From: a virus
Length of the DNA: 28,517 nt
Virus record (IMG/VR): IMGVR_UViG_3300041809_000273
Coordinates: 1 to 28,517 of that record
Strand: one strand, 5' to 3'
Made by a program: the position numbers and the translations under genes. Of this stretch, positions 1,806 to 27,482 are shown in pieces; within the stretch, counting starts at the first letter, position 1, and each line of letters opens with the position of its first letter. A model generated the notes under the pieces. That model saw nothing but the letters and a program-made list of their open reading frames with translations. It had not been told where the DNA came from and made no database searches.

Positions 1806-1855
1806 TGAGCCACTTTGTCAGAAAAGTTGACTCAAAGTCAGTAAAACTATACCGA
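1806..1855 (+). promoter_or_regulatory. Putative late promoter with TGAGCCAC box, upstream of scaffold/capsid
   Basis: TGAGCCAC (1806-1813), 13 bp, TTGACT (1827-1832), then TATACC (1848, 15-bp spacer) or TACCGA (1850, 17-bp spacer) as possible -10. It lies in a 147-bp gap before the scaffold gene. The same box and spacing recur at 8671 and 22095, and with an 11-bp gap at 27435. GTCA-N7-TGAC forms an inverted repeat inside it (also seen in the 22095 copy). Promoter function is inferred from recurrence and position. Confidence 0.6.
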
Positions 1856-1945
1856 CGTCGTTCGAGAATACAAATCCAGGCGAGGGTCGCTTGGTGGATT
1901 ACGCCAGTGGCGGGATTCTAACAGTCCAAGGCTCGGAGGTTCCGC

Positions 1946-2737
1946 ATGCCGGAAATCGTGTTCGATACTCTTGACGCTGTCCCCGAGGGATTTCGTGAAG
2001 TGGCTAGCCAGAAAGATGGAAAGTTCACCGTGAACGTGGTGGCGGCAAACAAGCTGGCGGAGTTCCGGGACAACAACATCAGTTTGGCGCGCGAACGCGA
2101 TGGGCTGAAGGCATACCATGACTCGCTGGCGGGTATCGTGGGTGAAGACCCGGCGTCGTTCATGACCAGCTACGGCGAGCTTCAGACGATCGCCCAGAAG
2201 GTCAAGGACGGCACTCTCAAGGGCTCCGACGCCGTGCAGGCGGAAGTGGCCCAGCGGGTCGCCCAGATGAAGGCAGACTACGAGCGCCAACTTGCTCAGC
2301 AAGCCCAGGACGCAAGCACCTGGAAGAGCAAGGCCGGCGAGAACGACACGAAATGGCGCCGGTCGATCGTCGATCGGCAGATCACCGAAGCGGTGATCAG
2401 TGACGCAAGTGGTGCGCTTCCGAGCGCACTGTCGGACATCCTGACGCGCGCCTACCGCGTGTTCAAGGTCACCGACGACAACAAGCTGATCGCCAGGGAT
2501 GGCGAGGCAGTGATCTATGGAGCAGACGGGACAACCCCGATGTCTCCGCTGGAGTGGTTGGCGAAGCTCCGGGAGAGCGCGCCTTACTTCTTCAAAGGTT
2601 CCAACGGTGGCGGGGCCACCGGAGCGGCGAACGCAGGCGGTGGGTTGTATGGCGGGATGTCCCTGGCGGACTTCCAGAAGCTCGCTCCTGAAGCCAAGCT
2701 CGCACTGGCGCATCGACTGAAGCAGGGCAAGAAGTAG
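1946..2737 (+). CDS. Capsid scaffolding protein, 263 aa
   Basis: Probable internal scaffold that directs assembly of the procapsid and is then lost. The sequence is charged and strongly helical: residues ~25-135 are rich in E, K, Q, A and R with coiled-coil spacing (for example RERDGLKAYHDSL and AQMKADYERQLAQQAQDA). A mixed region with DGxxP-type loops follows, then a glycine-rich linker, and a basic C-terminus (LALAHRLKQGKK), where scaffolds typically contact the coat protein. Position between portal and major capsid gene and length fit the role. No serine-protease motif is seen, so a capsid protease is less likely. Start ATG 1946 follows GGAGG at 1935-1939. Confidence 0.75.
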   Translation: MPEIVFDTLDAVPEGFREVASQKDGKFTVNVVAANKLAEFRDNNISLARERDGLKAYHDSLAGIVGEDPASFMTSYGELQTIAQKVKDGTLKGSDAVQAEVAQRVAQMKADYERQLAQQAQDASTWKSKAGENDTKWRRSIVDRQITEAVISDASGALPSALSDILTRAYRVFKVTDDNKLIARDGEAVIYGADGTTPMSPLEWLAKLRESAPYFFKGSNGGGATGAANAGGGLYGGMSLADFQKLAPEAKLALAHRLKQGKK

Positions 2738-2787
2738 CCCATCAGCTTCGGCGTATCGCGGATCGAGTTGCGTCCAGTCGCGTAAGC

Positions 2788-2828
2788 GAGACTGACACGG
2801 CGTAAGGGCGCTGTGCCGGGTCGGTCTC
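2788..2828 (+). other. Stem-loop in the major capsid gene leader
   Basis: Arms 2788-2801 and 2815-2828 pair over 14 positions (13 paired including one G-T wobble, one A-G mismatch) around a 13-base loop. No T-run follows (next bases are TCCGAACG), so it is not a standard terminator. It lies 44 bases before the capsid start codon in the mRNA; an mRNA-stabilising or processing role is possible but not shown. Confidence 0.6.
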
Positions 2829-2871
2829 TCCGAACGCAAACCAGCCCCGCGACCTACCGAGGAGAACAGCA

Positions 2872-3807
2872 ATGGCTCTCACCCTGCTGGAGGCTTCCAA
2901 GCTGAATGATGGCGATGTCCATCGTCAGGCAATCATCGAGATGTTCGCCGCGAACAGCGACATCCTTCGTGTTCTGCCGTTCGAAGACGTGCCGGGCGGA
3001 AGCCTTTCCTACAACCAGGAAGGCAAGCTGCCGGGTGTCGCATTCCGTGGCTACAATGAAGCCTACAGCGAGAGCGTGGGCATCATGAACCCGCAGGTCG
3101 AAGTCCTGAAGATCGCCGGTGGCGATCTGGACGTCGACAAGGCGATCCTGAAGACGCGCGGCATGGAGCAGCGGTCGGTCCAGGAAGCCATGAAGGTGAA
3201 GGCGCTGAGCCTCTACCTGACCGGCAAGGTCATCAACGGCGACTCCGAGGCCGACCCGCGTCAGTTCGACGGTCTGCGGAAGCGCATCCAGGGCTACCAG
3301 CTTCTCGGCGCCAACTACGTCACGCCGACGAGCGACCTGCCGCTGTCGCTGGAGGCGCTGGACGCCGCCATCGACCGCGTCGACAACCCGACGCATCTGC
3401 TCATGTCGAAGGACATGCGCCGGAAGCTGACGGTCGCCGCGCGTAACTATCAGGTCGGTGGCTTCATCGACTACAGCCTGGACGAGTTCGGCAAGCGGGT
3501 GACGCTCTACAACGATCTGCCGATCCTGATCGCCGACTACGACGACACCGGCTCGAAGATCATCGACTGGGTCGAAGCCGGCCCGAACGGTGGCACGACC
3601 TGCCAGTCGCTTTACGTTCTGTCGATCGGCAGCGGCATGGTGACCGGCCTTCAGAATGGCACCATGGAAGTCAACGACTTGGGCGAGCTTCAGACCAAGC
3701 CGGTCTACCGCACGCGCGTGGAGTGGCTTGTTGGCCTCGCCGCGATGCACGGTCGTTGCGCCAGCCGTATCTGGGGCATCACCAACGCCGCAGTGACCGC
3801 CACGTAA
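2872..3807 (+). CDS. Major capsid protein (HK97-fold type), 311 aa
   Basis: Main shell protein. The protein begins MALTLLEASKL, typical of phage capsid proteins, and continues with a predicted extended-loop region (PGGSLSYNQEGKLPGVAFRGYNEAY), a spine-like helix after LDVDKAILKTRG, and the conserved late segment LLMSKDMRRKLTVAAR followed by YNDLPILIADYDD, a pattern shared by many HK97-fold coat proteins in which a second copy of the ligand-binding-like loop is read as gv-Pil-Dy. Length is normal for the unprocessed type that uses a separate scaffold. Start ATG 2872 follows GAGGAG at 2859-2864. Codon use is strongly GC-biased, as expected for the most expressed gene. Confidence 0.9.
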   Translation: MALTLLEASKLNDGDVHRQAIIEMFAANSDILRVLPFEDVPGGSLSYNQEGKLPGVAFRGYNEAYSESVGIMNPQVEVLKIAGGDLDVDKAILKTRGMEQRSVQEAMKVKALSLYLTGKVINGDSEADPRQFDGLRKRIQGYQLLGANYVTPTSDLPLSLEALDAAIDRVDNPTHLLMSKDMRRKLTVAARNYQVGGFIDYSLDEFGKRVTLYNDLPILIADYDDTGSKIIDWVEAGPNGGTTCQSLYVLSIGSGMVTGLQNGTMEVNDLGELQTKPVYRTRVEWLVGLAAMHGRCASRIWGITNAAVTAT

Positions 3808-3810
3808 AAA

Positions 3811-3848
3811 CGGACGCCACCCCGGGGGAGAAATCCCCTGAGGGTCCG
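3811..3848 (+). other. Stem-loop between capsid and decoration genes
   Basis: GGGGA (3825-3829) and TCCCC (3834-3838) close a GAAA tetraloop; an outer CGGAC (3811-3815) / GTCCG (3844-3848) stem extends it with internal loops. No T-run follows, so it is at most a weak terminator; mRNA 3'-end protection of the capsid message is an alternative. Confidence 0.6.
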
Positions 3849-3880
3849 ACACCACTCCCTCTGAATCAGGAGACAGTCCA

Positions 3881-4330
3881 ATGACCGTCCGTTCCGCCTT
3901 CAATCGGTTCCCGCTCGATGCCCTGCTGTGGCTTCAGCCGGATACCGCCCCCGTGATTACCGCGACCGCTGCGTCCGCCAACTCGTATCCGATCGACTTC
4001 TCGGTCGGCTACTGGAACACGGATGGTGGCGTCGACGCCGCGACCCTGCTGGAGTTCGCCGTCGAGGTGATCGTCAACACCATTGCCACCACCGGCACCT
4101 ACAGCCTCGCCGTGCAGGTTGCACCCGACGCCGCGTTCACCGTTCCGGTGGTCCTGGCGACTGTCGCGCCGACCGCGACGGGCCGCACGACCCTGGTCGT
4201 GTCGCGCGAAGCCATCGCCGCTGCGCTTGGAGCCAACCAGACGGGCTTCCTCCGGGTCTACGCAACCCTGGGTGGCACCACCCCGTCGATCGACTACGAG
4301 TCCTATCTGGCGCCGCTGTCGGGCGACTAA
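3881..4330 (+). CDS. Probable capsid decoration (cement) protein, 149 aa
   Basis: Likely a protein that binds the outer capsid surface and stabilises it. It directly follows the major capsid gene, has its own ribosome site (CAGGAGA, 3868-3874), and is predicted almost entirely beta: alternating VITATAASANSYPIDF, LLEFAVEVIVNTIATTGTYS, LAVQVAPDAAFTVPVVLATV, then FLRVYATLGGTTPSIDYESY. This layout resembles cement proteins of the Bbp16 type from Bordetella phage BPP-1, which also follow the coat gene; the resemblance is by pattern only. Strong terminator immediately downstream, so it closes the capsid transcript. An alternative is another head-associated beta-sandwich protein. Confidence 0.6.
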   Translation: MTVRSAFNRFPLDALLWLQPDTAPVITATAASANSYPIDFSVGYWNTDGGVDAATLLEFAVEVIVNTIATTGTYSLAVQVAPDAAFTVPVVLATVAPTATGRTTLVVSREAIAAALGANQTGFLRVYATLGGTTPSIDYESYLAPLSGD

Positions 4331-4355
4331 GTCCCGGCGCGACCCCAAGTAGAAA

Positions 4356-4386
4356 GGGGAGGCAAGTGTGCCTCCCCATTTTTTTT
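4356..4386 (+). terminator. Strong intrinsic terminator closing the capsid unit
   Basis: GGGGAGGCA (4356-4364), four-base loop AGTG, TGCCTCCCC (4369-4377), then A and eight T (4379-4386). The stem is a perfect 9 bp and GC-rich. It lies 25 bases after the decoration gene stop. Confidence 0.93.
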
Positions 4387-4461
4387 CCGGGGTGACGGAT
4401 CGGCTGAGAGAGCATCCCCTGCGCAAGCAGTAGCCGGATTGACCCGAACAAGGAGAAGCCT

Positions 4462-4779
4462 ATGACCGACAACACCGTCGACGTGTGGGACCTGAAGGGC
4501 GTCAAGCACACAGTCACACGCGCGAACGCCAACGATTTCGTGACGCACCTGGGCTGGACCCGGAAGTCGCCGATCGTAGCTGCGGCTGCACCGGCTGCTG
4601 CGCGCGAGCCCGAGGCCGCTCCTCCGGCTCAGGCGAAGCCGGTCGACCCGGTCGATCTCACTCAGATGTCCCGCGAGGGGCTCGTGCGCTTCGCCCAGGA
4701 ACACTTTGGCATGACGTTCGATGCGAACGTGTCTGCCGAGGCGATCTTGAACGCTATCCTGACCGAGCAGACGAGCTAA
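4462..4779 (+). CDS. Small protein with VxDxxG...GW domain and HeH/LEM-like C-terminus, 105 aa
   Basis: Function unknown. Residues 8-32 form a short domain (VWDLKG ... DFV..LGW), followed by an Ala/Pro-rich linker (~40-65) and a C-terminal helix-turn-helix-like segment (MSREGLVRFAQEHFGMTFDAN, then SAEAILNAI) of the kind seen as HeH/LEM or SAP-like tails on small phage head proteins. The N-terminal motif and its spacing recur in the next gene. Start ATG 4462 follows AGGAG at 4451-4455. It is the first gene after a strong terminator, and no clear promoter is visible between them, so it may rely on read-through. Confidence 0.65.
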   Translation: MTDNTVDVWDLKGVKHTVTRANANDFVTHLGWTRKSPIVAAAAPAAAREPEAAPPAQAKPVDPVDLTQMSREGLVRFAQEHFGMTFDANVSAEAILNAILTEQTS

Positions 4780-4803
4780 CCGTCCGCTCCAGTTTCGCAA
4801 TGC

Positions 4804-4833
4804 TTGACTGATCGCGTAAGTATAGCTTACCAA
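4804..4833 (+). promoter_or_regulatory. Putative promoter lacking the TGAGCCAC box
   Basis: TTGACT (4804-4809) with TTACCA/TACCAA at 4827-4833 (17-18 bp spacer) in the 116-bp gap before the gene at 4896. GGAGAT (4835-4840) and ATCTCC (4865-4870) could pair downstream in the leader. No TGAGCCAC box is present, so strength and regulation may differ from the others. Confidence 0.45.
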
Positions 4834-4895
4834 AGGAGATAAGGCTGACGCAGCGTGTTGGCCCATCTCCCTTGTTCTTTTTGGTGGAGGCAACA

Positions 4896-5186
4896 ATGCT
4901 GATGATGGTCTACGACAAACAGGGCGAGCCGTTCGAAGTGCGCCCCGACGTGGCGAAAAAGCTCGTCATCGAGCAGGGTTGGAACATGGGGAAGGCGGTC
5001 GCCGCTGCTCCTCACGCAGCCGCAACGCCGCCGACCGCTGCTGGGCATCCGGCCTTTGCAGTGGAGCACGCTCCCGAGCCCGTACATGTTGCGCCTGCGG
5101 TAGCCGTCACGCCCACGCCGGCTGCGCCTGCGGTAGCCGTTTCGACTGCGCCGGCTGCGGCAACTCCGGTGGCTCCCGCCGCCTAA
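4896..5186 (+). CDS. Small protein with VxDxxG...GW domain and Ala/Pro tail, 96 aa
   Basis: Function unknown. Residues 5-29 (VYDKQG ... KLV..QGW) repeat the N-terminal motif of the gene at 4462 with identical spacing (21 residues from D to G of GW), so the two look like paralogues. The remaining ~60 residues are Ala, Pro and Val rich with an 11-residue tandem repeat, and the helical C-terminal domain of the neighbour is missing. Start ATG 4896 is preferred over TTG 4872 because GGTGGAGG lies at 4883-4890. It could be a minor virion or scaffold-associated protein; nothing in the sequence decides this. Confidence 0.6.
   Translation: MLMMVYDKQGEPFEVRPDVAKKLVIEQGWNMGKAVAAAPHAAATPPTAAGHPAFAVEHAPEPVHVAPAVAVTPTPAAPAVAVSTAPAAATPVAPAA
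5091..5156 (+). repeat. 33-bp tandem direct repeat in coding sequence
   Basis: GCGCCTGCGGTAGCCGT occurs at 5091-5107 and 5124-5140, a 33-bp period encoding APAVAV plus T/P/A residues. The exact 17-bp identity suggests a recent tandem duplication in the Ala/Pro-rich tail. Confidence 0.8.
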
Positions 5187-5201
5187 CAGACGGAGGTTAT
5201 C

Positions 5202-5516
5202 ATGGGTGACTCGGAGGTTGAAGGCTTCGAACACTGGTTTCGCAATTACGGGGGCGCCATCGTCGAGCTTGCGGCGGGCACCGCAGCAAAGAAGACTGTG
5301 CAAGAAACCTTCTGTCTCCTGGGGGTGGACCTGCATGACCCTGAATCCGTGAATGATTTCCGCACTGGCATTCAGCAGGTCGTCTCCATGCAGAAGGCAC
5401 GGGAGCAGCGGATCTACTGGATGCGCAAGGGTGCCATCAACGGCGTTTTCACCATCGTCATAACGCTCGCCCTCACCGGGTTCACCTATTTCCTCGCCAA
5501 ATTCAAGGGCATGTGA
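5202..5516 (+). CDS. Single-pass membrane protein of unknown function, 104 aa
   Basis: A small protein with an amphipathic N-terminal part (HWFRNYGGAIVELAAGTAAKK), a middle segment with LGVDLHDPESVNDFRTGIQQV, a basic patch (KAREQRIYWMRKG) and one C-terminal membrane helix at ~80-99 (GVFTIVITLALTGFTYFLA). The positive patch before the helix predicts the N-terminus in the cytoplasm with a very short outer tail. Similar small tail-anchored proteins are common in phage head regions. A lysis role is not likely, since a complete lysis cassette is found at the end of the window. Start ATG 5202 follows GGAGG at 5191-5195. Confidence 0.65.
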   Translation: MGDSEVEGFEHWFRNYGGAIVELAAGTAAKKTVQETFCLLGVDLHDPESVNDFRTGIQQVVSMQKAREQRIYWMRKGAINGVFTIVITLALTGFTYFLAKFKGM

Positions 5517-5691
5517 GCAACAATTTGTTAATGCATCAGCGCGTTGCGCGAATGTCCTCTGTGGCAAAAATGCACCACAAACGCTTTCGCGCAAGATTCT
5601 TACCGAACACGCGATCGTGACGCTTGCCACGGTTGTATGCGCGGTGCATGGTTTCAGTCGCTTGGTTTTGTGCAATTTCGGCAACGAACGA
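5517..5691. other. Non-coding or degenerate stretch, visibly lower in GC
   Basis: No convincing gene. Small inverted repeats are present (CGCG-TTG-CGCG near 5540; GTGG...CCAC near 5561-5578). On the minus strand a frame without stops runs from 5754 to the TGA at 5536-5538 with an ATG at 5649; its translation contains MHRAYNRGKRHDRVFGKNL. No minus-strand ribosome site or promoter was recognised. Confidence 0.4.
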
Positions 5692-5895
5692 ATGGAACAG
5701 AACGTGGTGCCGGCGATCCTTGACGATGCGACGGTAGAGGCCGAGCAGGCCTCTTTAATTCTCGGAACACATCAAGCAGTGGAGTTAGCTGAGGCTCCCT
5801 TATCGGCGACAATCTTGCAGACGTTACTCACGGTTCTTGCGAGATCGCTTAAATCTGTAGAGCACCTGAGTTCACTGGTAATGGAAACGACATGA
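5692..5895 (+). CDS. Uncertain small ORF upstream of phoH, 67 aa
   Basis: Frame starting MEQNVVPAILDDATVEAEQA and ending HLSSLVMETT, predicted helical and acidic at the start. No family recognised. No good ribosome site precedes ATG 5692; the frame can be extended to GTG 5617, also without one. Its composition is less GC-rich than the neighbouring genes. In its favour, the stop overlaps an ATG (ATGA at 5892-5895) and an intrinsic terminator on the same strand follows, so the region is transcribed in this direction. Could be real, or leader RNA with a chance ORF. Confidence 0.35.
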   Translation: MEQNVVPAILDDATVEAEQASLILGTHQAVELAEAPLSATILQTLLTVLARSLKSVEHLSSLVMETT

Positions 5896-5912
5896 AAGAG
5901 TTTGCCCATTAG
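5892..5912 (+). CDS. Candidate six-codon leader peptide MKEFAH
   Basis: ATG at 5892 overlaps the preceding stop (ATGA); the frame reads MKEFAH and stops at TAG 5910-5912, 12 bases before a terminator hairpin. Such a placement is what a transcription-attenuation leader would look like. Chance occurrence is possible given the small size. Confidence 0.25.
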   Translation: MKEFAH

Positions 5913-5924
5913 AACTGTCTGAAG

Positions 5925-5961
5925 AGGGGTAAGGATAGCAGCACTGTCCTCGCCCCTTTTT
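5925..5961 (+). terminator. Intrinsic terminator/attenuator directly before phoH
   Basis: AGGGG (5925-5929) pairs with CCCCT (5953-5957), continuing inward through AGGA/TCCT and AG/CT with wobbles and one A-C mismatch, loop CAGCA; the T-run is 5957-5961. The phoH ribosome site starts 12 bases later, leaving no room for a promoter between them, so phoH must be transcribed through this hairpin. An alternative stem, CTGTCT (5915-5920) with GGATAG (5933-5938), would break the inner terminator stem. Confidence 0.8.
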
Positions 5962-5985
5962 CGTATGTTCCGCAGGAGAACTACC

Positions 5986-6726
5986 ATGAACGAAGACCTT
6001 CTCGACCCGCCTGTCATGACTCGCGCCTCTCGAAAGGCACTCGCTCGGCGGCAGCGGAAGGATGAGAAGACGTCACGTCGCCCCGTAGAGCGCAGGGTTC
6101 CGCTGGCTCCGCGCAACGAGAGGCAGGGTGAGTATCTTCAGGCACTCCACGATTGCGATCAGGTGTTCGGGGTAGGTCCCGCCGGCACCGGTAAGACCTA
6201 CCTCGCGGCGCGGTGGGCGATCCGTCAGGTGCTCGACCGGCGCAAGGAATGCGTGGTGATCTGCCGTCCCACTGCCGCCAAACCAAAGCACCGTTTGGGA
6301 TTCCGTCCCGGCAATCAGGACGAAAAAGTTGCCGACTGGTTGGTTCCCATCATGGACGGCTTCAAGGACGAATGTGGTGCCGCCACGATCGCAAAGATGA
6401 AGATAGCAGGCCAGATCGAGTTCGCTGCCTTTGAGACCATGCGCGGGCGCACGTTTCGCAATGCCGTGGTCATCCTCGACGAGGCGCAGAACTGCGACAT
6501 GGGCGACCTGCGGCTCTTCCTGACTCGGATCGGTGAAGGCTCCCAGGTGATCGTCGATGGCGACCTGGACCAAATCGACATCGACGATCCCGGACTGGAG
6601 AAGGTGCTCGACATGGTCGAGGAGTTCGACCTGGACGCCGACGTCATCGAGTTCGAGCCGGAGGACGTGGTGCGCAGTGCAATTGCGCGTGGGTGGGTGG
6701 GGGCCTTTGCGCGGAGCCGAAGGTGA
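5986..6726 (+). CDS. phoH: PhoH-like P-loop ATPase, 246 aa
   Basis: Cytoplasmic ATPase of the PhoH family, related to the N-terminal domain of superfamily 1 helicases; phage copies are frequent but their role is not settled. Walker A is GPAGTGKT at residues 64-71 and Walker B VVILDEAQN at 161-169. The family segment TRIGEGSQVIVDGDLDQID at ~180-198 supplies the sensor-type arginine and aspartates. The first ~40 residues are basic and probably flexible. It lacks the KH RNA-binding domain of larger PhoH2-type proteins. Start ATG 5986 is preferred to ATG 5965 because AGGAG lies at 5974-5978. It sits between the head and neck genes, an unusual place for this gene, and is preceded by a terminator-like hairpin. 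The gene stop is followed within 10 bases by a TTGACA element. Confidence 0.92.
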   Translation: MNEDLLDPPVMTRASRKALARRQRKDEKTSRRPVERRVPLAPRNERQGEYLQALHDCDQVFGVGPAGTGKTYLAARWAIRQVLDRRKECVVICRPTAAKPKHRLGFRPGNQDEKVADWLVPIMDGFKDECGAATIAKMKIAGQIEFAAFETMRGRTFRNAVVILDEAQNCDMGDLRLFLTRIGEGSQVIVDGDLDQIDIDDPGLEKVLDMVEEFDLDADVIEFEPEDVVRSAIARGWVGAFARSRR

Positions 6727-6761
6727 GTTTCTTTGACAATTACGACAGTTCTGCTTACTCG
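6724..6761 (+). promoter_or_regulatory. Putative promoter for the neck genes
   Basis: TTGACA (6733-6738), 17 bp, TACTCG (6756-6761). TGAG (6724-6727) overlaps the phoH stop, as in two of the TGAGCCAC elements, but the rest of the box is missing. It lies just before the adaptor gene at 6790. Confidence 0.45.
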
Positions 6762-6789
6762 GGAGTGTCGCACGCAGCAGGAGGCTGAC

Positions 6790-8656: not shown

Positions 8657-8670
8657 TTTCTCTGCCATCG

Positions 8671-8720
8671 TGAGCCACATTGCCGGTTTTCTTGACAGTT
8701 TGCCTTACCCCCTCTAGGCA
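8671..8720 (+). promoter_or_regulatory. Putative late promoter with TGAGCCAC box, upstream of tail tube
   Basis: TGAGCCAC (8671-8678), 13 bp, TTGACA (8692-8697), 17 bp, TAGGCA (8715-8720). It is the best-formed copy of the family. The tail tube start is 42 bp beyond the -10. Confidence 0.65.
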
Positions 8721-8761
8721 TTCAGTCGAAATCAATTTTCCCCGGCAGTGAGGGTCACACG

Positions 8762-10591
8762 ATGCCATATTTTGCTGACAGCAACCGGTCGATCCTCCGG
8801 CTTCTCCCGGAGACCCAGTGGGGCCAGACCCCCACCAGTGGTGTGTCCCGCGCACAGCGGATGACGAGTCACAGCCTGACGACCAAGAAGACCACGGCGA
8901 TGTCGAATGAAATCCGGGACGACCGGATGGTTTCGGACATCATCGAGACCGAGATGATGTCTGACGGCAGCATCAACTTCGAGTTCGCATCGGGCAGCAG
9001 CGACGACATCCTTGAGGCGTTCGTCTGCGGCACCTGGAGCCGCCCGATGACCTTCGACTCCTGGGAGGGCACGGAGGTTTCCTGGATCGCCGTCAACGAA
9101 GTCGCCGTTTCCGGTCCGACCATCGTCCCCTACCTCACGGTCGGGCGCCGCATGAAGACCGAGAACTTCATCAATCTGGCGAACAATGGCTTCTTCCAGA
9201 TCAGCGCCGTCACCTTCAACGCCACCACCAATCAGAGCGTGGTCACGTTCACCACGTCGCCCGGCATCATCGAGGCGGGCAACCTGAAGTCGCGGCTGTC
9301 GGACGCCAACGACATCATTGTGCTGAGCAACACCGCCATCCGCGCCGGCACGGGCGGGTTAGCCGAGTTTGACTCGAACGGCACGAACGCCTTCGCCTCC
9401 GCCATCACCGCCGGCAACATCGTCGCCGGGCAGAAGATTCACGTCGAGGGGCTGGGCTACGACGTCGGGTCGATCGCCTTCTCGAAGGCGCTGGAAGCTG
9501 GTGACAGCGTGGTCGTCTTCGACGGCGTGAACACCTACACCTTCGTCGCGGGGACCGACTTCGCGTTCGGCACCACCGCCGCGATGACGGCGACCAATCT
9601 CGCCTGGGCGATCAACACCGCGCGTGTGCTTGGCATTGGCGCGCAGCCCGGTATCGAGGCCACTTACGTCAACGTGGCTGCGACCGTCACCGGCAGCACC
9701 CTCACCGTGAAGAACTTCAATGCCACCGGTGGCACCCTGAACAAGGGCGTCGACGCTGGAACCGCCATGACCGTCACCGCCTTCGCTGGCGGCAACGTGT
9801 CCGAGCATGGCATCTTCACGATCATCGCTGCGGCCAACGACGTGCTGACCGTCAGCCCGGCCCCGGCGACGAACGCAAATGTGGGTGCCGCGCCTGTCAC
9901 CATTCGGGGAAGCATGCTGCGCAATCCGAGTGTGTCCAGCAACATCATCACGCAGAGCTACACGATGGAGTCCGGCTACGAGGATGTGGGGCTCTACTTC
10001 GTGCAGAACGGTATGACCCCCTCCGGCTTCACGCTGGACGTCAACGCTTCGCAGATCATCAACGGCACCGTCGAGTTGATGGGCCGTGCGACGACCACGA
10101 GCACTGCCACTGTGATCGGCGCGGCGCCTTACACCGCTCTGAATGCCGTTACGTGCGAGTCCATGAACGCTACCACCGACGCCGGCACCGTGACGAAGAA
10201 CGGTCTGCCGCTGACGACCGCCGTCAAGCAGATCAAGATGGACTGCAAGGCGCAGCTTCGCAACCAGATGGCTGTCGGTTCGCAGTTCCCGGTTGGCATG
10301 GGCTTCGGTCGCTTCGAACTGACCGGGTCGGTGCAGGCCTACTTCGCCAACTTCGACCTGTTCAACAACTTCCTGAACCATGACTCGGTGTCGCTCGGCT
10401 TCTCGTTCACCGACTCGGCAGGTCAGCACTACGAGTTCGCCATTCCGGCGGTCAAGCTCACGGCGGACCCCATCAACGCCAAGGGCATCGACCAGGACGT
10501 CATGGAGGACATCACCTTCTCGGCGTTCCGCGATCCGGCGACCGCGTGCATGCTCCAGGTCGATCGCTTCAGCAGCCTTCGGCCTGTCTAA
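8762..10591 (+). CDS. Tail tube protein with inserted domain, 609 aa
   Basis: Major tail tube subunit. The N-terminal ~190 residues and the C-terminal ~230 match the large tail tube family (Phage_tube_2 type): opening NRSILRLLPETQWGQTP, later MVSDIIETEMMSDGSINFEFASGSSDDILEAFV, and the late segments SYTMESGYEDVGLYFVQNG and FDLFNNFLNHDSVSLGF. Family members I recall are nearer 300-450 residues. The extra length includes a segment at ~237-346 that interrupts the usual VEGLGYDV...GIFTIIAAANDVLTV loop and carries DGVNTYTFV and TATNLAWAIN, a small domain seen in many phage tail proteins. Start ATG 8762 follows GAGGG at 8749-8753. A perfect hairpin follows the stop. Confidence 0.85.
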   Translation: MPYFADSNRSILRLLPETQWGQTPTSGVSRAQRMTSHSLTTKKTTAMSNEIRDDRMVSDIIETEMMSDGSINFEFASGSSDDILEAFVCGTWSRPMTFDSWEGTEVSWIAVNEVAVSGPTIVPYLTVGRRMKTENFINLANNGFFQISAVTFNATTNQSVVTFTTSPGIIEAGNLKSRLSDANDIIVLSNTAIRAGTGGLAEFDSNGTNAFASAITAGNIVAGQKIHVEGLGYDVGSIAFSKALEAGDSVVVFDGVNTYTFVAGTDFAFGTTAAMTATNLAWAINTARVLGIGAQPGIEATYVNVAATVTGSTLTVKNFNATGGTLNKGVDAGTAMTVTAFAGGNVSEHGIFTIIAAANDVLTVSPAPATNANVGAAPVTIRGSMLRNPSVSSNIITQSYTMESGYEDVGLYFVQNGMTPSGFTLDVNASQIINGTVELMGRATTTSTATVIGAAPYTALNAVTCESMNATTDAGTVTKNGLPLTTAVKQIKMDCKAQLRNQMAVGSQFPVGMGFGRFELTGSVQAYFANFDLFNNFLNHDSVSLGFSFTDSAGQHYEFAIPAVKLTADPINAKGIDQDVMEDITFSAFRDPATACMLQVDRFSSLRPV

Positions 10592-10594
10592 ACG

Positions 10595-10630
10595 GGTAAG
10601 GCGCGCTGACCGACATCAGCGCGCCTTACC
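10595..10630 (+). other. Perfect 15-bp hairpin after the tail tube gene
   Basis: GGTAAGGCGCGCTGA (10595-10609) and its exact complement (10616-10630) enclose a six-base loop CCGACA, starting 3 bases after the stop. No T-run follows (GTTATACCC). CGGGTA (10593-10598) can alternatively pair with TACCCG (10635-10640). It is either a terminator lacking U-tract or a block to 3'-exonuclease that stabilises the tube message. Confidence 0.85.
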
Positions 10631-10671
10631 GTTATACCCGACGACGACGTCTTGGTTGCTGCGCAGCCTGC

Positions 10672-18370: not shown

Positions 18371-18371
18371 G

Positions 18372-21300: not shown

Positions 21301-22097
21301 GGACGGCGGCGAACGCGCTGGGGGATACGACGGCGAAATTTTCCTTGGATGTCGTGAACACGGTCACGATTGCCTTGGGCTTTGCTTCGGAGACGCTGTC
21401 GTCGATCACGGACGACCAACTCACGGCCTGGGGCAACATGGCTATCCTTGGGCAGGAGGTGATCCAGTTCCGCGACGTGACTGTGAATGGCGACGGGACG
21501 GTGACGCTGAGCGCCCTGCTGCGTGGACGGCGCGGCACGGACTGGGCAACCGACACGCACAGCATCGGCGATACGTTCGTTCTGGTAGACCCGACGACGA
21601 TGTCCGGGATAGCAACCCCGGCTTCGGAGATCGGCACGGCTGAATACTGGGAACTGGTGTCCTCCGGCCTCAATGCGGAGAGTGTGGCTCCTTATGCCTA
21701 CCGCAATCTCGGCTATCCACTGATGCCCTATGCGCCGCTGAACCACACCCGGGCGACCAGCGGTGGCAATCTCGTGGTGGGCTGGTCGAGGCGGACCCGG
21801 CTGTCGGGAGAGATGACGGACGGGACGGGGGTTGTGCCGTTGATGGAGGACTTCGAGCAGTATGACGCCTATGTGCTGGCGGCGCCGTTCGACCCCTACG
21901 TGTTCAACGCGGGCACTCCCTCCACCTTTGTCCGCGCCTACACCGGGCTGACGAGCCCGACTTTCACCTACGCGGCTGCGGACATGGCGACGGACGGGTT
22001 CAACCCGGCGACCAGCACCCTCCATCTGGTGGTCTTCCAGGTCTCGTCGGTGGTTGGGCCGGGCTTCCCCGGATGGTCCGACATGCTTCCTTGCTGA
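18372..22097 (+). CDS. Large tail tip / host-specificity protein (GTA gp15-like), 1241 aa
   Basis: Central tail-tip protein. The N-terminus is Gly-rich and hydrophobic (GMVAGAAVGYEMG ... GGMIGGVVGGMLFPVAGP, residues ~8-50), then LNVSTSTYGMPVQTVYGTTRI and CGGPISDVLRIWADGKLIYD, standard for this family. The C-terminal half (~660-1241) matches Phage-tail_3-type sequences: AQPTNLAGIVTDIC, PYFVTFDYADSALDYQRGSA, LDPGDVVTVSLTNGD, and LLRGRRGTDWATDTHSIGDTF. Between them, ~215-650, no GTA-type TIM-barrel motif is seen. Instead there are repeated beta/turn units such as GGIAVWDLVANTLVRIV, ILILDGSLNYMYG, FKWDVDSSTMVWS and STTDGSLKWQG, resembling propeller blades, plus a hydrophobic stretch ~366-420. Codons there (about 19440-20100) are more AT-rich. 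Start ATG 18372 follows GGAGAAG at 18361-18367. Confidence 0.9.
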   Translation: MGQLAVTAGGMVAGAAVGYEMGNTALGTAIGGMIGGVVGGMLFPVAGPDRPDLNVSTSTYGMPVQTVYGTTRISGNCFWATTLNQHNPSGKGGQSATGPTYTCSFAVGLCGGPISDVLRIWADGKLIYDKTNTLQIVHAISKFNFVFRVYLGTEDQLPDYLITDWCAANVSAAPNAAPAYRGLAYVIFDNIRLDDFANRIPSITAEVVAPADVSFAQVMPATIPAGNASSFGQVSNLTPDINNEYAYQAVDGGIAVWDLVANTLVRIVPASDIYVGADRDDPKMAITNMAFLAVGGTGTLYLNPWNSGRIVSISTGAMKQNDSLGTYFFSFGATDMQIWNRQFLAVNTDPETSTLLPWIEDLGTAYGITVVSIIPGIPGITDEIIGAFVSLVSAEISPVVQGVMGLMGALSMFATPVRYVDFVFVNAGNSILILDGSLNYMYGDSEGSNYIPMPYQTFGTTQVCNANPGSMTSVFKGPIAYVVNSSAYGGNVYLYAVWYVTLFPLYFSSLAHIMDGASLELMATIPASVFSWSTMVVRSVTYDPSDNRLIFYVQGTNGSGATAYMLFKWDVDSSTMVWSTAVSAFNNATPAAFSSPYAGMIGFGEEEQESATPFFLYSTTDGSLKWQGAGSPQMATTGPTYYVGVTNSLVITTPGGVVQAQLDTAEAQPTNLAGIVTDICVKSGIAATQIDVSLLTQPVAGYSVDKLTPGSAVLGQLCATYFIDVVESDYKLKFVPRGSAPVANIVQDDLAPDSAKSDDVWTNKRTQDVELPYFVTFDYADSALDYQRGSAYAKRISGPVNTTWSKAKVSVKVPIVMDDTLAAQTAQKILYTAWQERNAYSTTLGWQYLWLDPGDVVTVSLTNGDVYTVRFTTIETGADFTMKCDTCGEDSATYSSTVQGGATSFIPQGIVGVVYANFYVFNVPLLEDSDAPAAGSTILYYGAGAHRAGWTSGAVLESSDGTTYDQVGTLGSSVVWGTAANALGDTTAKFSLDVVNTVTIALGFASETLSSITDDQLTAWGNMAILGQEVIQFRDVTVNGDGTVTLSALLRGRRGTDWATDTHSIGDTFVLVDPTTMSGIATPASEIGTAEYWELVSSGLNAESVAPYAYRNLGYPLMPYAPLNHTRATSGGNLVVGWSRRTRLSGEMTDGTGVVPLMEDFEQYDAYVLAAPFDPYVFNAGTPSTFVRAYTGLTSPTFTYAAADMATDGFNPATSTLHLVVFQVSSVVGPGFPGWSDMLPC

Positions 22098-22144
22098 GCC
22101 ACAGTGTCAGAATTATTGACGCCAGGGCGGTTATGCTTTCTGTA
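22095..22144 (+). promoter_or_regulatory. Putative late promoter with TGAGCCAC box, upstream of the fibre genes
   Basis: TGAGCCAC (22095-22102) begins at the stop codon of the hub gene; 13 bp later TTGACG (22116-22121). The -10 is weak (TCTGTA at 22139 with 17-bp spacing). GTCA-N7-TGAC inverted repeat as in the 1806 copy. Confidence 0.55.
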
Positions 22145-22170: not shown

Positions 22171-25155
22171 ATGGCGAACACCCTCTACCTCAACATTCCG
22201 CAGGTCTCCGCCAATCAGAACCAGAAAGAGGTGACCATCAACTCTGGCATCGCTGCGCTGGAGGCGGCTCTGTGCTCATCCCTGATCATCACGTTTGCCA
22301 GTGCCAACGTCACTCTTTCGGCGACTCAGTTCGCCGGCAACATCATGTTTCGGGTGCAGGGCACGCTGACCGGAAATAGCCTCATCTTTCCAGCCACAGT
22401 CGGCGGCAACCCCACCAATCGCCTGATCTGCGTCACGAACGAGACGACTACCCCGGTCACCCTCTCGATGGGAACGGGGACAACCGTTTCCCTTCCGGGA
22501 GGGGTGAATGCCTTCGTCTATGTGAATGGCGCGGTCGGCTGTGTGCTCTTGGCAACGTCTGCGAGTCTGGCTTCGTTGATAGTGAAGAGCGGCACCACGA
22601 CGATCGACACGGCGACCGCCAATCTGACGTTCTCGTCAAAGTTTGTCGTTACGGATACGAGCCCCGGCTCCGTCTCGTTGGACATCAACGCCAGCGTGCT
22701 CGGCTCCCTCAGCTACGAAGGCACCTGGAACGCCTCGACGAATGTGCCGGCCTTGGAAAGCAGCGTGGGCACCAAGGGCTACTTCTACACCGTCGCCACC
22801 GCTGGCACGACGGCGCTCGACGGCATCACTCAATGGAACGTAGGCGACAAGGCTATCTTCGATGGAACGGTCTGGGAGAAGATCGACGGCGTTGCCAACG
22901 AGGTGACCAGCGTTGCTGGCAGGACCGGCAATGTCGTGCTTGCCGTTGCCGACGTCGCTGGCGCTGCCCCTCTCGCCAACGCCGACCTCACAGGCGCCAC
23001 CGTCACGACGCCTGCGGCGACTGACAATTCAACCAAGATTCCCAACACCTCCTGGGTAGCTGCCTATCTCGCCGCGCAGGGATACGTCACGGCTACAACG
23101 ACTCCCGTGACGTCGGTCAACGGCATGACCGGCGTGGTGACGGGGCTGGAGCAGACGAGCAACAAAGCGGCTGCGAACGGCTATGCCAGCCTCGACGGTT
23201 CCGGGAAGGTCCCGCTCGCACAACTTCCTGCTGCGGTTGCTGGCGCCCTCAGCTACCAGGGCACCTGGGATGCCTCAGCAAACGTGCCGGCCCTGGCATC
23301 GTCGACTGGGACGAAGGGATATTTCTACACCGTTGCTACGGCGGGTAGCACGACGCTGGATGGCATCAGCACATGGAGCGTGGGAGACAAGGCCGTCTTC
23401 GATGGGACGGTCTGGGAGAAGATTGACGGCATCGCCAACGAGGTGCTGAGCGTCGCCGGGATGACCGGCAATGTCACCCTCACGGTTGCGAACGTCACGG
23501 GCGCCGCTCCTCTCGACAGTGCCGCCCTCACAGGAGCGCCCACAACCCCGGCTCCTCCGGTGGCTGACAACTCGACCAGGATTCCGAACACCGCCTGGGT
23601 TGCTGCCTATCTCGCCGCGCAGGGGTATGTCGTAGCTACGGCGGTCCCAGTCACGTCGGTCAACGGCATGACCGGTGCGGTGGTCGGGCTGGAGCAAACG
23701 TCGAACAAGGGAGTGGCGAACGGCTACGCCGGCCTGGATGGCGGTGGCAAGGTGCCAATCGCGCAGCTTCCTGCTGCGGTTGCCGGCGCCCTCAGCTACC
23801 AAGGCACCTGGAACGCCGCGACGAATGCTCCTGCTCTCGCCAGCAGCACGGGCACCAAGGGTTACTTCTACACGGTCGCCACCGCTGGCACGACGACCCT
23901 GGATGGTTATGCTGTATGGAGCGTCGGCGACAAGGCCGTCTTCAACGGCGCCACCTGGGAAAAGATCGACGGCGTCGCCAACGAGGTGCTGAGCGTCGCC
24001 GGCAGGACCGGGAATGTGGTCCTCTCAGTCAGCGATGTCTCGGGTGCGGCTCCGCTCAGCGGCGCCTCTCTCACAGGGGCGACCTCCGCCTCGACGCTTG
24101 CGGCGAATGACAATTCCACCAACATTCCCAGCACCGCCTGGGTGACGGCGTTCGTCGCCGCACTCGGATACGTCACGCTATCGACAGCCCCAGTCACGTC
24201 AGTCAACGGCATGACCGGCGCTGTTGTCGGACTGGAGCAAACCGCAAACAAGGCGGCGGCGAACGGCTACGCCAGCCTTGACGGTTCCGGGAAGGTCCCT
24301 CTCGCGCAGCTTCCTGCTGCGGTTGCTGGCGCCCTCAGCTACCAGGGCACCTGGAACGCCTCGACGAACGCACCGGCTCTGGTGAGCAGCACAGGAACCA
24401 AGGGCTACTTCTACACGGTCTCCACTGCTGGCGCGACGACCTTGGATGGGATCAGCCAGTGGAACGTGGGAGACAACGTCGCCTTCAACGGGACGGTCTG
24501 GGAGAAGATTGACGGCGTCGCCAACGAGGTGCTGAGCGTCGCAGGGATGACCGGCGCGGTGACCCTGACCGCAGCCAACATCGGCGGTCTGGGTGCTCTT
24601 GCCCCCCTGAACGTCGGCACAGGTCTCACCAGCACCAGCGGCTCTCTCACGGTCTCCTACGGCGCGGCAGCCGGGACAGCCGCGCAGGGCAATGACACCC
24701 GCATCACTGGCGCGGAGCAGACGGCAAACAAGAACGCGGTGAACGGTTACTGCGGTCTCGACTCCTCCGGCTTGATCCCCTGGGCGCAGATGCGGCCTGA
24801 AGTGCAGAACCTCCCGCTCGCCTTCATCATTCCAACGCTCCCCACCTCTGGGCAGGTCTACAACCTCGTCGTCGCCACAGCGGTAACGATCCCCGCCAAT
24901 TTTGCTGGCACGGTCGTCTACGAAACAACGCTGCCCACGGCGAACGCTGTCTTTACCGTGAATCACATCAGTTCCGGCACGACCACACAGATCGGAACGA
25001 TCACGATCACCTCAGCGAGTCACACGACCGCACTTCTCAGCACGCAAGCAGCGGTTTCTCTGGCGGTAGGAGATGTGTTGCAACTCGTCGCGCCGACACC
25101 GCAGGACACAACTCTCGCGAATGTTGGCATCACCATTCTAGCGGCAAAGGTGTAA
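22171..25155 (+). CDS. Repetitive tail fibre protein, 994 aa
   Basis: Long fibre, probably trimeric, projecting from the tail tip. The N-terminus (LYLNIPQVSANQNQKEVTINSGIAALE) resembles the attachment domain of DUF2793-type tail proteins. From residue 181 there are four copies of a ~181-residue unit: a module with GTWNASTN.PAL, GTKGYFYTV.TAG, WNVGDKA.F.GTVWEKIDG, then SVAGMTGNVVL, AAPL, DNST.IP.T.WVAAYLAAQGYV and VTSVNGMTG, and a linker GLEQTSNKAAANGYASLDG. The fourth copy is incomplete and passes into a different C-terminal domain (~870-994), predicted beta and ending ANVGITILAAKV. Start ATG 22171 follows GAGG at 22162-22165. It opens a new transcription unit after the promoter at 22095. Confidence 0.88.
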   Translation: MANTLYLNIPQVSANQNQKEVTINSGIAALEAALCSSLIITFASANVTLSATQFAGNIMFRVQGTLTGNSLIFPATVGGNPTNRLICVTNETTTPVTLSMGTGTTVSLPGGVNAFVYVNGAVGCVLLATSASLASLIVKSGTTTIDTATANLTFSSKFVVTDTSPGSVSLDINASVLGSLSYEGTWNASTNVPALESSVGTKGYFYTVATAGTTALDGITQWNVGDKAIFDGTVWEKIDGVANEVTSVAGRTGNVVLAVADVAGAAPLANADLTGATVTTPAATDNSTKIPNTSWVAAYLAAQGYVTATTTPVTSVNGMTGVVTGLEQTSNKAAANGYASLDGSGKVPLAQLPAAVAGALSYQGTWDASANVPALASSTGTKGYFYTVATAGSTTLDGISTWSVGDKAVFDGTVWEKIDGIANEVLSVAGMTGNVTLTVANVTGAAPLDSAALTGAPTTPAPPVADNSTRIPNTAWVAAYLAAQGYVVATAVPVTSVNGMTGAVVGLEQTSNKGVANGYAGLDGGGKVPIAQLPAAVAGALSYQGTWNAATNAPALASSTGTKGYFYTVATAGTTTLDGYAVWSVGDKAVFNGATWEKIDGVANEVLSVAGRTGNVVLSVSDVSGAAPLSGASLTGATSASTLAANDNSTNIPSTAWVTAFVAALGYVTLSTAPVTSVNGMTGAVVGLEQTANKAAANGYASLDGSGKVPLAQLPAAVAGALSYQGTWNASTNAPALVSSTGTKGYFYTVSTAGATTLDGISQWNVGDNVAFNGTVWEKIDGVANEVLSVAGMTGAVTLTAANIGGLGALAPLNVGTGLTSTSGSLTVSYGAAAGTAAQGNDTRITGAEQTANKNAVNGYCGLDSSGLIPWAQMRPEVQNLPLAFIIPTLPTSGQVYNLVVATAVTIPANFAGTVVYETTLPTANAVFTVNHISSGTTTQIGTITITSASHTTALLSTQAAVSLAVGDVLQLVAPTPQDTTLANVGITILAAKV
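22711..24820 (+). repeat. Four tandem 540/543-bp coding repeats in the fibre gene
   Basis: Units start at 22711, 23251, 23794 and 24337 (periods 540, 543, 543 bp); the fourth loses similarity in its second half (from ~24580). Copies 2-4 share the highly similar junction around AVAGALSYQGTW. Nucleotide similarity is high in the SYQGTW, GTKGYFYT and VTSVNGMTG blocks and lower in the linker that varies by unit. Confidence 0.95.
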
Positions 25156-25157
25156 TC

Positions 25158-26693
25158 ATGGCCTGGATGCTTGGTGACAGCTTCGATTTCTACACCACGA
25201 TGAACGATGCCCTGCCGCTGTGGACAACTGTCGGCACCTATACGTTCAACCCCACTGGCCCAGGCAGGTTTACCGGGTCCAGGTGTGTCACGATACCTGG
25301 GACCTTGGGGGGGACCTATCTGACGAAGACGGGTGGAACAAACAGTCAGACCCATCACCTTGTCTTTGCATTTTACCTGAATGCCGCACTCAGCGGGACC
25401 ACGAACTACTTCTTTGCCACCTTGGTGGACGGCTCAACCGCGCAATGCACGGTAATGTTTCGCAGTGACGGCGCCATCGTGTTCACCAACGGGGCCTACT
25501 CGGGCACCGTGCTGGAGACGTTCACCGGAGGCCTTGCGCCCTATACTTGGTATGGCATCGAGATAGAGATCACCATCAGCAACACTGCGGGCGCCATCAC
25601 GATCAGGTTGAACGGTTCCACCACACCAATTTTTTCGGCTACTGGCCTGAATACGAGGACCACGTCTGATAACTATGCGAACGCGCTCTGGCTTGGCTCC
25701 ACGACGTATGGCGCCAACCTGCAATACATTGATGACTTCCTTTGGTTCACCTGTGACGGCGCCGCACCAAACACCTGGGTAGGTGATATTCGTGCAGTGC
25801 AGATAATGCCAGACGCCGCAGGAAGTTCTACAGAATTTTCGGCAACCCAGACGAGCCCATTTAACTATAACCCGGTAACTTCCGCTCAAAGGGGGCTGTC
25901 AGTGAATATGATGACTTTCGTTGGGCACGGCAACAGCAGCACCTACGACATAATTATGTCCGCTGCCGCGTCTATTACGAGCATACAGACTTCGTTCAAC
26001 GCGGCATTCACTGGTCACATGCTGGCAGCGATATATGACAACACAGGGGCGAGCGGTGGTCCAGGAAACCTCCTTGGGACGAGTAACGTGGTAACTTCGG
26101 CAGCAGCGGGAGCAACCGTGACCTTTACTTTCCCGGCGGGGGTCAATTACGTTGCAGGTTCGGAGATTTTTGTTGGATTCCTTTCTGATACCGCTGCCAC
26201 TCTTAACGGCCAGAGTGGGTGGGGCGGCATGGTGACCACGGCAGTGTCCCAGGCATACAGTTCGGGGTTTCCAAGTTCTTTGGCGTCCACCAGTTGGAGC
26301 TTTGGCACCTCAACGCAGATAATGCTTTCTCTGCAATATACAGTGGTAAATTTCGGCATGGTCAGCGAGGCGCAGGAGAACGGTGACACCACCTACATTT
26401 ATGACAGCAACCCTGGGGACAACGATCTCTATTTATTGCCGTCGCTTGCGACGACGCCGAGCACGATTCTTGCCGTGCAGACTCGCGGCTACATGCGGAA
26501 ATCTGACACTGGCACACGAACGGGTGCGCTCCAGATCAAATCCGGAACGACCACGGCGCAGTCAGGAACGCTCACCCTGTCAACTACCTACCAGGGAGTG
26601 AACCGTGTTGACGTTGTCGATCCGAACACCGGTTCGGCATGGCAGCCTGCGGCGGTGAATGCAGTGCAGGTTGGTCCTGTTGTGGTGTCGTAA
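25158..26693 (+). CDS. Lectin-like tail protein with inserted domain, 511 aa
   Basis: Probable receptor-binding or fibre-tip protein. Residues ~1-215 look like a concanavalin A/LamG-like beta sandwich: SFDFYTTMNDALPLW, FAFYLNAALSGTTNYFFATL, TWYGIEIEITISNTAGAITIRLNG, then YIDDFLWFTCDGAAPNTWVGDIRAVQI. In related phage lectins the segment after GDIR leads straight to EAxxNGDTTYIYDS..GDNDLYLL; here ~165 residues (about 230-395, nt ~25845-26340) of a different beta-rich sequence with lower GC are interposed. The C-terminus (ILAVQTRGYMRKSDTGTRTG) is standard for the lectin family. ATG 25158 follows the fibre stop by two bases; only a weak ribosome site (AAAGGTG) is present, so translation is probably coupled. 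Confidence 0.7.
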   Translation: MAWMLGDSFDFYTTMNDALPLWTTVGTYTFNPTGPGRFTGSRCVTIPGTLGGTYLTKTGGTNSQTHHLVFAFYLNAALSGTTNYFFATLVDGSTAQCTVMFRSDGAIVFTNGAYSGTVLETFTGGLAPYTWYGIEIEITISNTAGAITIRLNGSTTPIFSATGLNTRTTSDNYANALWLGSTTYGANLQYIDDFLWFTCDGAAPNTWVGDIRAVQIMPDAAGSSTEFSATQTSPFNYNPVTSAQRGLSVNMMTFVGHGNSSTYDIIMSAAASITSIQTSFNAAFTGHMLAAIYDNTGASGGPGNLLGTSNVVTSAAAGATVTFTFPAGVNYVAGSEIFVGFLSDTAATLNGQSGWGGMVTTAVSQAYSSGFPSSLASTSWSFGTSTQIMLSLQYTVVNFGMVSEAQENGDTTYIYDSNPGDNDLYLLPSLATTPSTILAVQTRGYMRKSDTGTRTGALQIKSGTTTAQSGTLTLSTTYQGVNRVDVVDPNTGSAWQPAAVNAVQVGPVVVS

Positions 26694-26696
26694 GCC

Positions 26697-27437
26697 ATGA
26701 CCACGACAACCTGGGACCCGTCTGAGTTATCCAACGTCACCCTTGACGCCACGGACCTGATTGCGACCGCGACTTCTTCGTCGGGCGGCGCGAGGGGTCT
26801 TGGTCATCAAGCCATTGGTAAATACTATTTTGAAGTCACTTGGAATACGTTTACGGCGGGGGACACCTCTTGCTGTGGCGTTGCGAACGCCAGTTGGAAC
26901 CTTACCAGCACATCGCTCAATTCTTCGGTGTATTATGCGACGTATTCTGGAGGGCAGATCGCCACCGCAGGAACGGCAAACACAACTTCCGCTGGTTTGG
27001 TGACGGCGGGGCAGACCGTAGGTGTCGCGGTTGATCTTATCAACAAGTTGATTTGGTTCCGGATTGCGCCGTCCGGCAACTGGAACGGCTCGACTACCGC
27101 AAATCCGGCAACCGCGACTGGTGGCTACTCCATATCGGCTCTTATTACGAGTGTCTTTGCGCCGATCTATCCTTGCGTCGGCTTTGCTGCGTCGGGTGAT
27201 AAGTTCACGGCTAATTTTGGAGGCTCCGCTTTTAGTGGCACGGTTCCTTCAGGCTTCACTTCGGGTTGGCCGAGCAGCAACACCTACGAAATGGTCACGC
27301 AGGTAGGCGCTGAGGTTTGGGTGAAGAATCCGTCTGCTATGCGCGTCACGCAGGTCGGTTCCGAAGTCTGGCGCTCGGTTGCCAACTATGTGGCGCCCGT
27401 CATCACCGCTGAGCCCATTGTTATGATCCTCGCGTGA
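26697..27437 (+). CDS. SPRY-domain tail protein, 246 aa
   Basis: Residues ~20-190 have the SPRY (B30.2-like) pattern: GLGHQAIGKYYFEVTWN, CCGVANAS, then GQTVGVAVDLINKLIWFRIAP and YPCVGFAASGDKFTANFGGSAF. SPRY domains occur in some phage tail proteins, presumably for binding a surface ligand; the ligand is unknown. The C-terminus has two copies of VTQVGxEVW (~200-225) ahead of a hydrophobic end, an arrangement often seen as a tip segment after phage beta-sandwich domains. ATG 26697 follows the previous stop by 3 bases. The stop TGA is the first part of the next TGAGCCAC box. Confidence 0.75.
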   Translation: MTTTTWDPSELSNVTLDATDLIATATSSSGGARGLGHQAIGKYYFEVTWNTFTAGDTSCCGVANASWNLTSTSLNSSVYYATYSGGQIATAGTANTTSAGLVTAGQTVGVAVDLINKLIWFRIAPSGNWNGSTTANPATATGGYSISALITSVFAPIYPCVGFAASGDKFTANFGGSAFSGTVPSGFTSGWPSSNTYEMVTQVGAEVWVKNPSAMRVTQVGSEVWRSVANYVAPVITAEPIVMILA

Positions 27438-27482
27438 GCCACTTTTGCGTTTCTTGACAGGTAAGACGGACTGTCGCAAGTA
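27435..27482 (+). promoter_or_regulatory. Putative late promoter with TGAGCCAC box, upstream of the lysis genes
   Basis: TGAGCCAC (27435-27442) overlaps the SPRY gene stop; TTGACA (27454-27459) follows after 11 bp rather than 13. The -10 is weak (CAAGTA at 27477). Similar in sequence to the 8671 copy apart from the 2-bp gap. Confidence 0.6.

Follow-up and report, generated by a model that had tools for sequence, protein, structure and literature searches.

A recurrent element ahead of the late genes

The virus record IMGVR_UViG_3300041809_000273 (28,517 nt; hereafter the window, meaning the whole stretch of DNA analysed) contains four copies of an element in which the box TGAGCCAC is followed by TTGAC. 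They begin at 1806, 8671, 22095 and 27435, all on the same strand and with gaps of 13, 13, 13 and 11 bp, as the initial annotation had listed them. The comparisons described below support the assignment of this element as a sigma70-type late promoter with a putative bipartite upstream site, TGASCC at -56 and TGTCA at -46. It represents a real late-promoter class that is common to a phage clade, for which the activator candidate is good but unproven.

These four are the only exact pairs of box and TTGAC in the 28,517-base record. Shuffled sequences contain a mean of 0.02 such pairs, and none of 100 shuffles reaches four. The box alone, with one mismatch allowed, is not enriched in the window (32 matches versus 30.1 expected); the signal therefore resides in the combination of box and TTGAC at a fixed spacing. 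All four copies are intergenic and on the coding strand in a window of which about 5% is intergenic by our own gene list, and the boxes at 22095 and 27435 start on the stop codon of the preceding gene; both features had been noted initially and were recovered here. A matrix with fixed spacing, trained on 12 sites from other phages of which some occupy orthologous positions, gives the three 13-bp copies the top three scores in the window (32.6, 29.6 and 26.7; the next is 11.0), and the highest score among 100 surrogates is 20.7. The copy at 27435, with its 11-bp gap, is missed by this matrix. A consensus promoter scan of positions 1-12000 reported neither of the two elements in that range, and an Rfam scan of the window gave no match. 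A further contig (L005) that is 99.9% identical to the window over 4,918 bases and reaches further upstream carries a fifth copy, TGAGCCACTTCGCCGGTTTCC-TTGACT, which starts 82 bp 5' of the portal gene.

Table 1. Positions in the window of the four elements, two proposed -10 sequences, and the genes that follow
Feature	Coordinates	Strand	Description
Element 1	1806..1831	+	TGAGCCAC, TGTCAG block, -35 TTGACT (1827-1832); scaffold/capsid unit
Element 1 proposed -10	1850..1855	+	TACCGA, spacer 17
Head scaffolding protein	1946..2737	+	phrog_206, 2.4e-35; first gene after element 1
Major capsid protein	2872..3807	+	phrog_212
Element 2	8671..8696	+	Box, TGCCGG block, -35 TTGACA (8692-8697); tail-tube unit
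Element 2 proposed -10	8715..8720	+	TAGGCA, spacer 17
Tail-tube type protein	8762..10591	+	phrog_290 minor tail protein; matches annotated major tail tube; first gene after element 2
Element 3	22095..22120	+	Box on upstream stop codon, TGTCAG block, -35 TTGACG; fibre unit
Repetitive fibre/minor tail protein	22171..25155	+	phrog_13892; first gene after element 3
Element 4	27435..27458	+	Short 11-bp gap, box on upstream stop codon, -35 TTGACA; lysis unit
First gene after element 4	27508..28092	+	Lysis role from synteny alone
97-aa protein	28089..28382	+	Homologous to lysis-cassette gene in G001 and Mwe-JY26

The scaffold/capsid, tail-tube and fibre labels that had been given to the downstream units agree with PHROGs matches (Table 1), and the lysis label follows from synteny only. 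The first protein of this last unit matches no PHROG or Pfam family and does not resemble the lysozyme of Microcystis phage Mwe-JY26. The homologue of its neighbour, the 97-aa protein, adjoins the lysozyme gene in Mwe-JY26. In the partial contig G001, an 11-bp-gap copy (TGAGCCACTTTCACATTAC-TTGAC) lies ahead of a lysis cassette that combines a weak GH19 match, below cut-off, with a homologue of the same 97-aa protein. The short version of the element may belong to lysis promoters. Two further features of the window were observed. The fibre-like protein appears by eye to consist of about four repeated blocks of about 190 residues each, and four stretches occur in its PHROGs matches. A strong terminator-like hairpin with a T run (4356-4377) lies 3' of the gene at 3881-4330, and the next gene has no element ahead of it.

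Conservation in related phages

By its sequence, the window is the head-tail-lysis part of a large siphovirus related to phiCbK. Its capsid protein is 78% identical to that of Mwe-JY26, 64% to that of Mesorhizobium phage Cp1R7A-A1 and about 60% to those of phiCbK-type Caulobacter and Brevundimonas phages. A near-identity DNA search against named phages found nothing, and a scan of genome contigs returned one distant fragment (L062) and no host. The Mwe-JY26 record (PP438418.1) is filed as a cyanobacterial phage, and its host label deserves a check because its capsid, promoters and regulator group with those of Alphaproteobacteria phages.

Upstream of the scaffold gene in L006 and L007/L008, the 21-nt spacing from TGAGCC to TTGACA is kept while the intervening bases differ. 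When TGAGCC was counted blind at every distance from TTGAC, a peak at 21 appeared in the window plus L005, in Mwe-JY26, in L006-L009 and in the tube relatives; there was none at 21 in Erythrobacter phage XM05, in L010-L012 or in the other 47 capsid kin. Mwe-JY26 has eight sites at 21 nt (set TG[AC][CG]CC), which precede the terminase unit, portal, scaffold and tube, the genes that follow the tube and the tail tip, the tRNA array and a single replication gene; the copy in the replication module is on the minus strand (L064:13359). At a fixed spacing of 21-22 nt, RpAliso has 8 sites, DSS3P8 has 6 and Cp1R7A-A1 has 6 at 22; in these phages and in Mwe-JY26, 0.2-0.4 are expected per spacing. In Cp1R7A-A1, TGAGCCGTTTGTCMAGAWTTNC-TTGAC or close variants at 21-24 nt precede the terminase operon, scaffold, tube, a TIGR02217 tail gene and a tail-fibre/tRNA-Cys unit.

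The Ruegeria, Rhodobacter and Phaeobacter phages place a box 21 or 22 nt before TTGAC, and DSS3P8, MAL1 and MD18 (60 of its 149 kb covered) carry elements of the same kind. In RpAliso, TGACCCGTTNTGTCA...-TTGAC or close variants at 21 nt stand ahead of a tRNA/methylase unit, portal, scaffold, tube and gene 65, and the box of gene 70 reads TGCGCC, making six units in all with the element before their first gene. RcXuper has the element ahead of portal and gene 68 and a scaffold copy with one mismatch. No excess of the box at 21-22 nt was found in phiCbK, EliS-L02 or XM05. Two further database matches to the full motif (L060 and L061) lie within genes and were rejected as chance.

The same upstream site thus recurs at a fixed distance before several late units, a P2-like arrangement, and the conservation of box, spacing and target genes in distant phages supports a single shared late-promoter class. 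Judged from these genomes, the element belongs to a whole clade of large, phiCbK-related siphoviruses. It had been regarded as a promoter class unusual for a siphovirus; the recurrent promoter is upheld, whereas its being special to this phage is not.

Promoter architecture

The initial annotation read TTGAC as a -35, and this reading is corroborated by sites that were chosen by box and TTGAC alone, without use of the position of TA. A TA occurs at N17/18 after TTGACN in 30 of 52 uncurated sites with the box at 21/22 nt, versus 39 of 374 with the box at another distance (Fisher p = 9e-14) and 200 of 1,839 box-less TTGAC sites. This enrichment identifies TTGAC as a sigma70-type -35. In a set of 49 elements, hand-picked by eye from the scans for their position ahead of genes, without regard to the -10 and leaving out apparent in-gene hits, spacing-20 hits and duplicates (L008, L065), TA lies 17 bp after TTGACN in 27 and 18 bp after it in 6 (33/49 in total). 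Within the window, two of the four elements have such a TA.

The -10s themselves are not good matches to TATAAT. Of 33 box-bearing promoters, 7 have a -10 that ends in T, versus 8 of 13 box-less promoters of Mwe-JY26 (p = 0.014), and none of the 11 in the window's own branch does. XM05, which has no box, has TTGACA-N17-TATCCT (by eye) ahead of its scaffold gene. Such poor -10s would give these promoters the look of activator-dependent ones. Mwe-JY26 also contains a second, box-less class, TTTTTCNG-TTGAC-N17-TAGNTT, at 26-65 kb (L063, L064), mostly at early-type genes and on both strands.

A profile was made from 36 sites at exactly 21 nt, in which TG[AC][GC]CC at -56 to -51 is fixed by selection. 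Beyond this box, the conserved bases are T -46 (in 25 sites), G -45 (30), T -44 (23), C -43 (27) and A -42 (21), and positions -40 and -38 are exclusively A or T. The inner pattern WKTGYCRG noted at the outset corresponds to this second conserved block. From the TGASCC block to the TGTC block is 10 bp, or one helical turn, and the consensus TGASCC-N4-TGTCA reads TGAC-N6-TGTC in the TGAC-type phages. Both an activator and the RNA polymerase alpha subunit had been suggested as readers of the box. An activator site agrees with these data, while alpha is an unlikely reader because the box is 6 bp long and contains GC; the AT-rich stretch at -40 to -38 fits alpha better.

A candidate activator

Gene content was compared between element-bearing and element-less phages, and the best candidate for the activator is a helix-turn-helix (HTH) protein of 100-123 aa whose matches to Sigma70 region 4 or HTH_23 exceed the Pfam cut-off in several members. 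Mwe-JY26, Cp1R7A-A1, G001 and the roseophages all encode it, among their nucleotide-metabolism genes close to thyX and ribonucleotide reductase (RNR), and the order thyX, small gene, regulator, RNR is consecutive in the five roseophages fetched. A hidden Markov model (HMM) search found no such thyX-linked HTH protein in Erythrobacter phages XM05 or EliS-L02. Some of the genomes scanned had supplied the proteins for the HMM, and consequently only its negatives are informative. The syntenic genes of CbK-like phages encode the C-terminal part alone and have no HTH match. We judge with roughly even confidence that this protein is the activator.

An AlphaFold model of moderate confidence (pLDDT 74.8, pTM 0.35) has an N-terminal three-helix HTH, whose third helix contains the variable K/R, and also a small alpha/beta tail. 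At E 0.001 or better, a Foldseek search with this model had no hits; only weak HTH domains, such as DosR and LiaR, were returned. The recognition helix reads K-R where the box is TGAGCC (Mwe-JY26, Cp1R7A-A1, G001 and L168/G010, which has cGAGCC 21 nt before TTGAC) and R-R where it is TGACCC (the five roseophages and G009). Contig G009 was reached through the regulator search; its scaffold gene is preceded by a TGACCC box that lies 21 nt before TTGAC. A new family of small activators, composed of a sigma-region-4-like HTH and a GYxLDGRPA tail, could control all late units of the clade via the -56/-46 site, its K/R residue changing with the TGAG/TGAC base; we hold this fuller proposal tentatively, at slightly less than an even chance.

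Contig L165 (IMGVR_UViG_3300017988_000144) comes from the same sample as L005 and encodes, next to dNMP kinase and thyX, a K-R protein that shares 47% identity with its G001 counterpart. This 5.6-kb replication piece carries exonuclease, helicase, dNMP kinase, thyX and HTH regulator genes (named by eye), and it may be a piece of the window's phage.

Proposed mechanism and alternatives

Taken together, the element as observed, with its -10, fixed spacing, target genes and conservation, is probably best explained by activator-driven sigma70 late promoters. Each element would be read by host sigma70-type RNA polymerase through the -35 TTGAC, N17/18 and a weak -10 starting with TA. A phage-encoded activator, made from the replication module, would bind a two-part site on one helix face (TGASCC at -56 to -51 and TGTCA at -46 to -42, followed by the A/T-rich -40 to -38) and might then touch sigma region 4, the alpha C-terminal domain or both. 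The same signal precedes each late block and recurs in distant relatives with other bacterial hosts, which suggests that all late genes are switched on jointly by a single phage protein. Separate units for portal, scaffold/capsid, tail tube, fibre and lysis could be switched on in this way, as could terminase and tRNA genes in relatives. Activation, lateness in the window's phage and the identity of the activator are what we infer here.

Several observations weigh against this explanation or against the proposed activator. The elements at 22095 and 27435 have no TA at spacer 17/18, and the tube gene of RcXuper has no good box ahead. The single site of G009 at 21 nt is about what chance would give (0.28 expected), so this contig counts for its position only; among the other regulator contigs, G011, G012, G013 and G014 lack a convincing late element, and neither G010 nor G012 yielded a capsid, scaffold, portal or tube gene. 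The covariation of K-R/R-R with TGAG/TGAC is one split on the tree and therefore counts as one event, and RpAliso 44682 (TGCGCC) has G where the K/R rule predicts C. No regulator gene of the window's phage lies inside the window, and L165 is linked to the window solely by sample, GC content and gene order.

The same promoters might instead depend on another phage activator, such as the Cro/XRE-type HTH 'immunity repressor' of Mwe-JY26 (XAI96020). Its homologues occur in Cp1R7A-A1, RpAliso, RcXuper, DSS3P8, MAL1 and G009 and not in XM05 or EliS-L02, a distribution nearly the same as that of the thyX-linked protein, which also tells against the latter. However, a short match extends to box-less CbK (2e-4), none was found in the partial contig G001, and XAI96020 itself sits among early-type genes with box-less promoters, leaving this possibility unlikely. 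Slightly less likely is a host transcription factor that reads the box, so that late genes follow a host signal as some relatives follow CtrA; the available text of PMC9437464 reports CtrA control of phage promoters for phiCbK and Cp1R7A-A1. Yet the box differs from TTAA-N7-TTAA, and it varies between phages (TGAG, TGAC, TGCC) along with the phage gene and not obviously with the host. Control by GcrA/CcrM through GANTC was dropped, as GANTC occurs in one of the four window elements.

Also improbable is recognition of the entire 26-bp block by a sigma factor or RNA polymerase specific to the phage, with the box as its upstream and TTGAC as its downstream element. In MD18, RpAliso and MAL1 the candidate regulator does exceed the Pfam cut-off for Sigma70 region 4, but it has no sigma region 2 match in Pfam, and TA at N17/18 after TTGAC is the normal sigma70 layout. 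A site for replication, packaging or nucleoid structure that is intergenic by chance would likewise be short, recurrent and intergenic. The element, however, follows the direction of transcription at the late sites compared and has a -10 at the right distance, and we consider this reading very improbable.

The element offers a testable late regulon across several phage lineages, together with a named candidate activator whose specificity is simply predicted. Relatives that infect Ruegeria pomeroyi, Rhodobacter capsulatus and Mesorhizobium loti are available as cultured phage-host pairs, which makes it directly testable. The element could also mark late genes and operon starts in metagenome fragments.

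Comparison with known systems

The late promoters of P2 and 186 use host polymerase and have an activator site centred near -55. The proposed arrangement resembles theirs in that several separate late operons each have their own promoter with a common activator site, and in that the activator there, Ogr (B), is small and phage-encoded. The available text of PMC3931495 describes four such promoters with TGT-N12-ACA, a symmetric site that is not found here, where TGASCC...TGTCA is asymmetric. Ogr is a CX2CX22CX4C zinc finger, whereas the candidate is a non-zinc HTH protein with no such cysteine pattern in its alignments, and the host, phage group and sequence of P2 are unrelated to those of the window's phage. 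By analogy, the element would work like P2 late control, yet it is not a member of that system because site and protein class differ. Lambda CII recognizes a direct tetramer repeat, TTGC-N6-TTGC, that straddles the -35 of early and lysogeny genes. TGAC-N6-TGTC is similar in its tetramer repeat, 6-bp separation and proximity to the -35, but it lies upstream of the -35 and at late genes.

Regulated promoters in the same phage group include those under CtrA (PMC9437464, available text). These differ in having a host regulator, a TTAA-N7-TTAA site, which is absent from the window element sequences by eye, and no TGASCC box. The available text of PMC3556154, PMC9127768, PMC5648845, PMC9437464 and PMC10688885 does not describe the element, and that of PMC7643831 contains no matching passage. 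Lacusarx promoters are described, in the text available, as predicted by program only. Literature searches on the box letter strings gave only unrelated papers among those listed, and the literature searched holds no description of a late-gene switch in phiCbK-type or roseophage siphoviruses.

phiCbK itself has an extended -35, TGTCGTGAATC-TTGAC, that also occurs ahead of its scaffold gene and places TGTC 11 nt before TTGAC. It differs from the element in having no TGASCC box and in having GAATC beside the -35, and the thyX-linked protein of phiCbK is without the HTH part. Up to about 20 TGTCGTGAATC-like copies (22 listed, a few doubtful) stand directly before TTGAC on both strands of NC_019405 (L133-L143; e.g., 30475, 56765 and 94007), and each has a GAATC (GANTC) methylation site against the -35. 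phiCbK is reported to encode a GcrA homologue (PMC3556154, available text), and it is possible that these promoters are GcrA/CcrM-dependent. A different repeated promoter occurs in Erythrobacter phage vB_EliS-L02 (OL955261), where more than 20 copies of AATAGNN-TTGACGAATCAC, with CGAATCA about 25 bp further on, lie between 133 and 150 kb (L152, L153), spaced about 500 bp apart and with two GANTC sites each.

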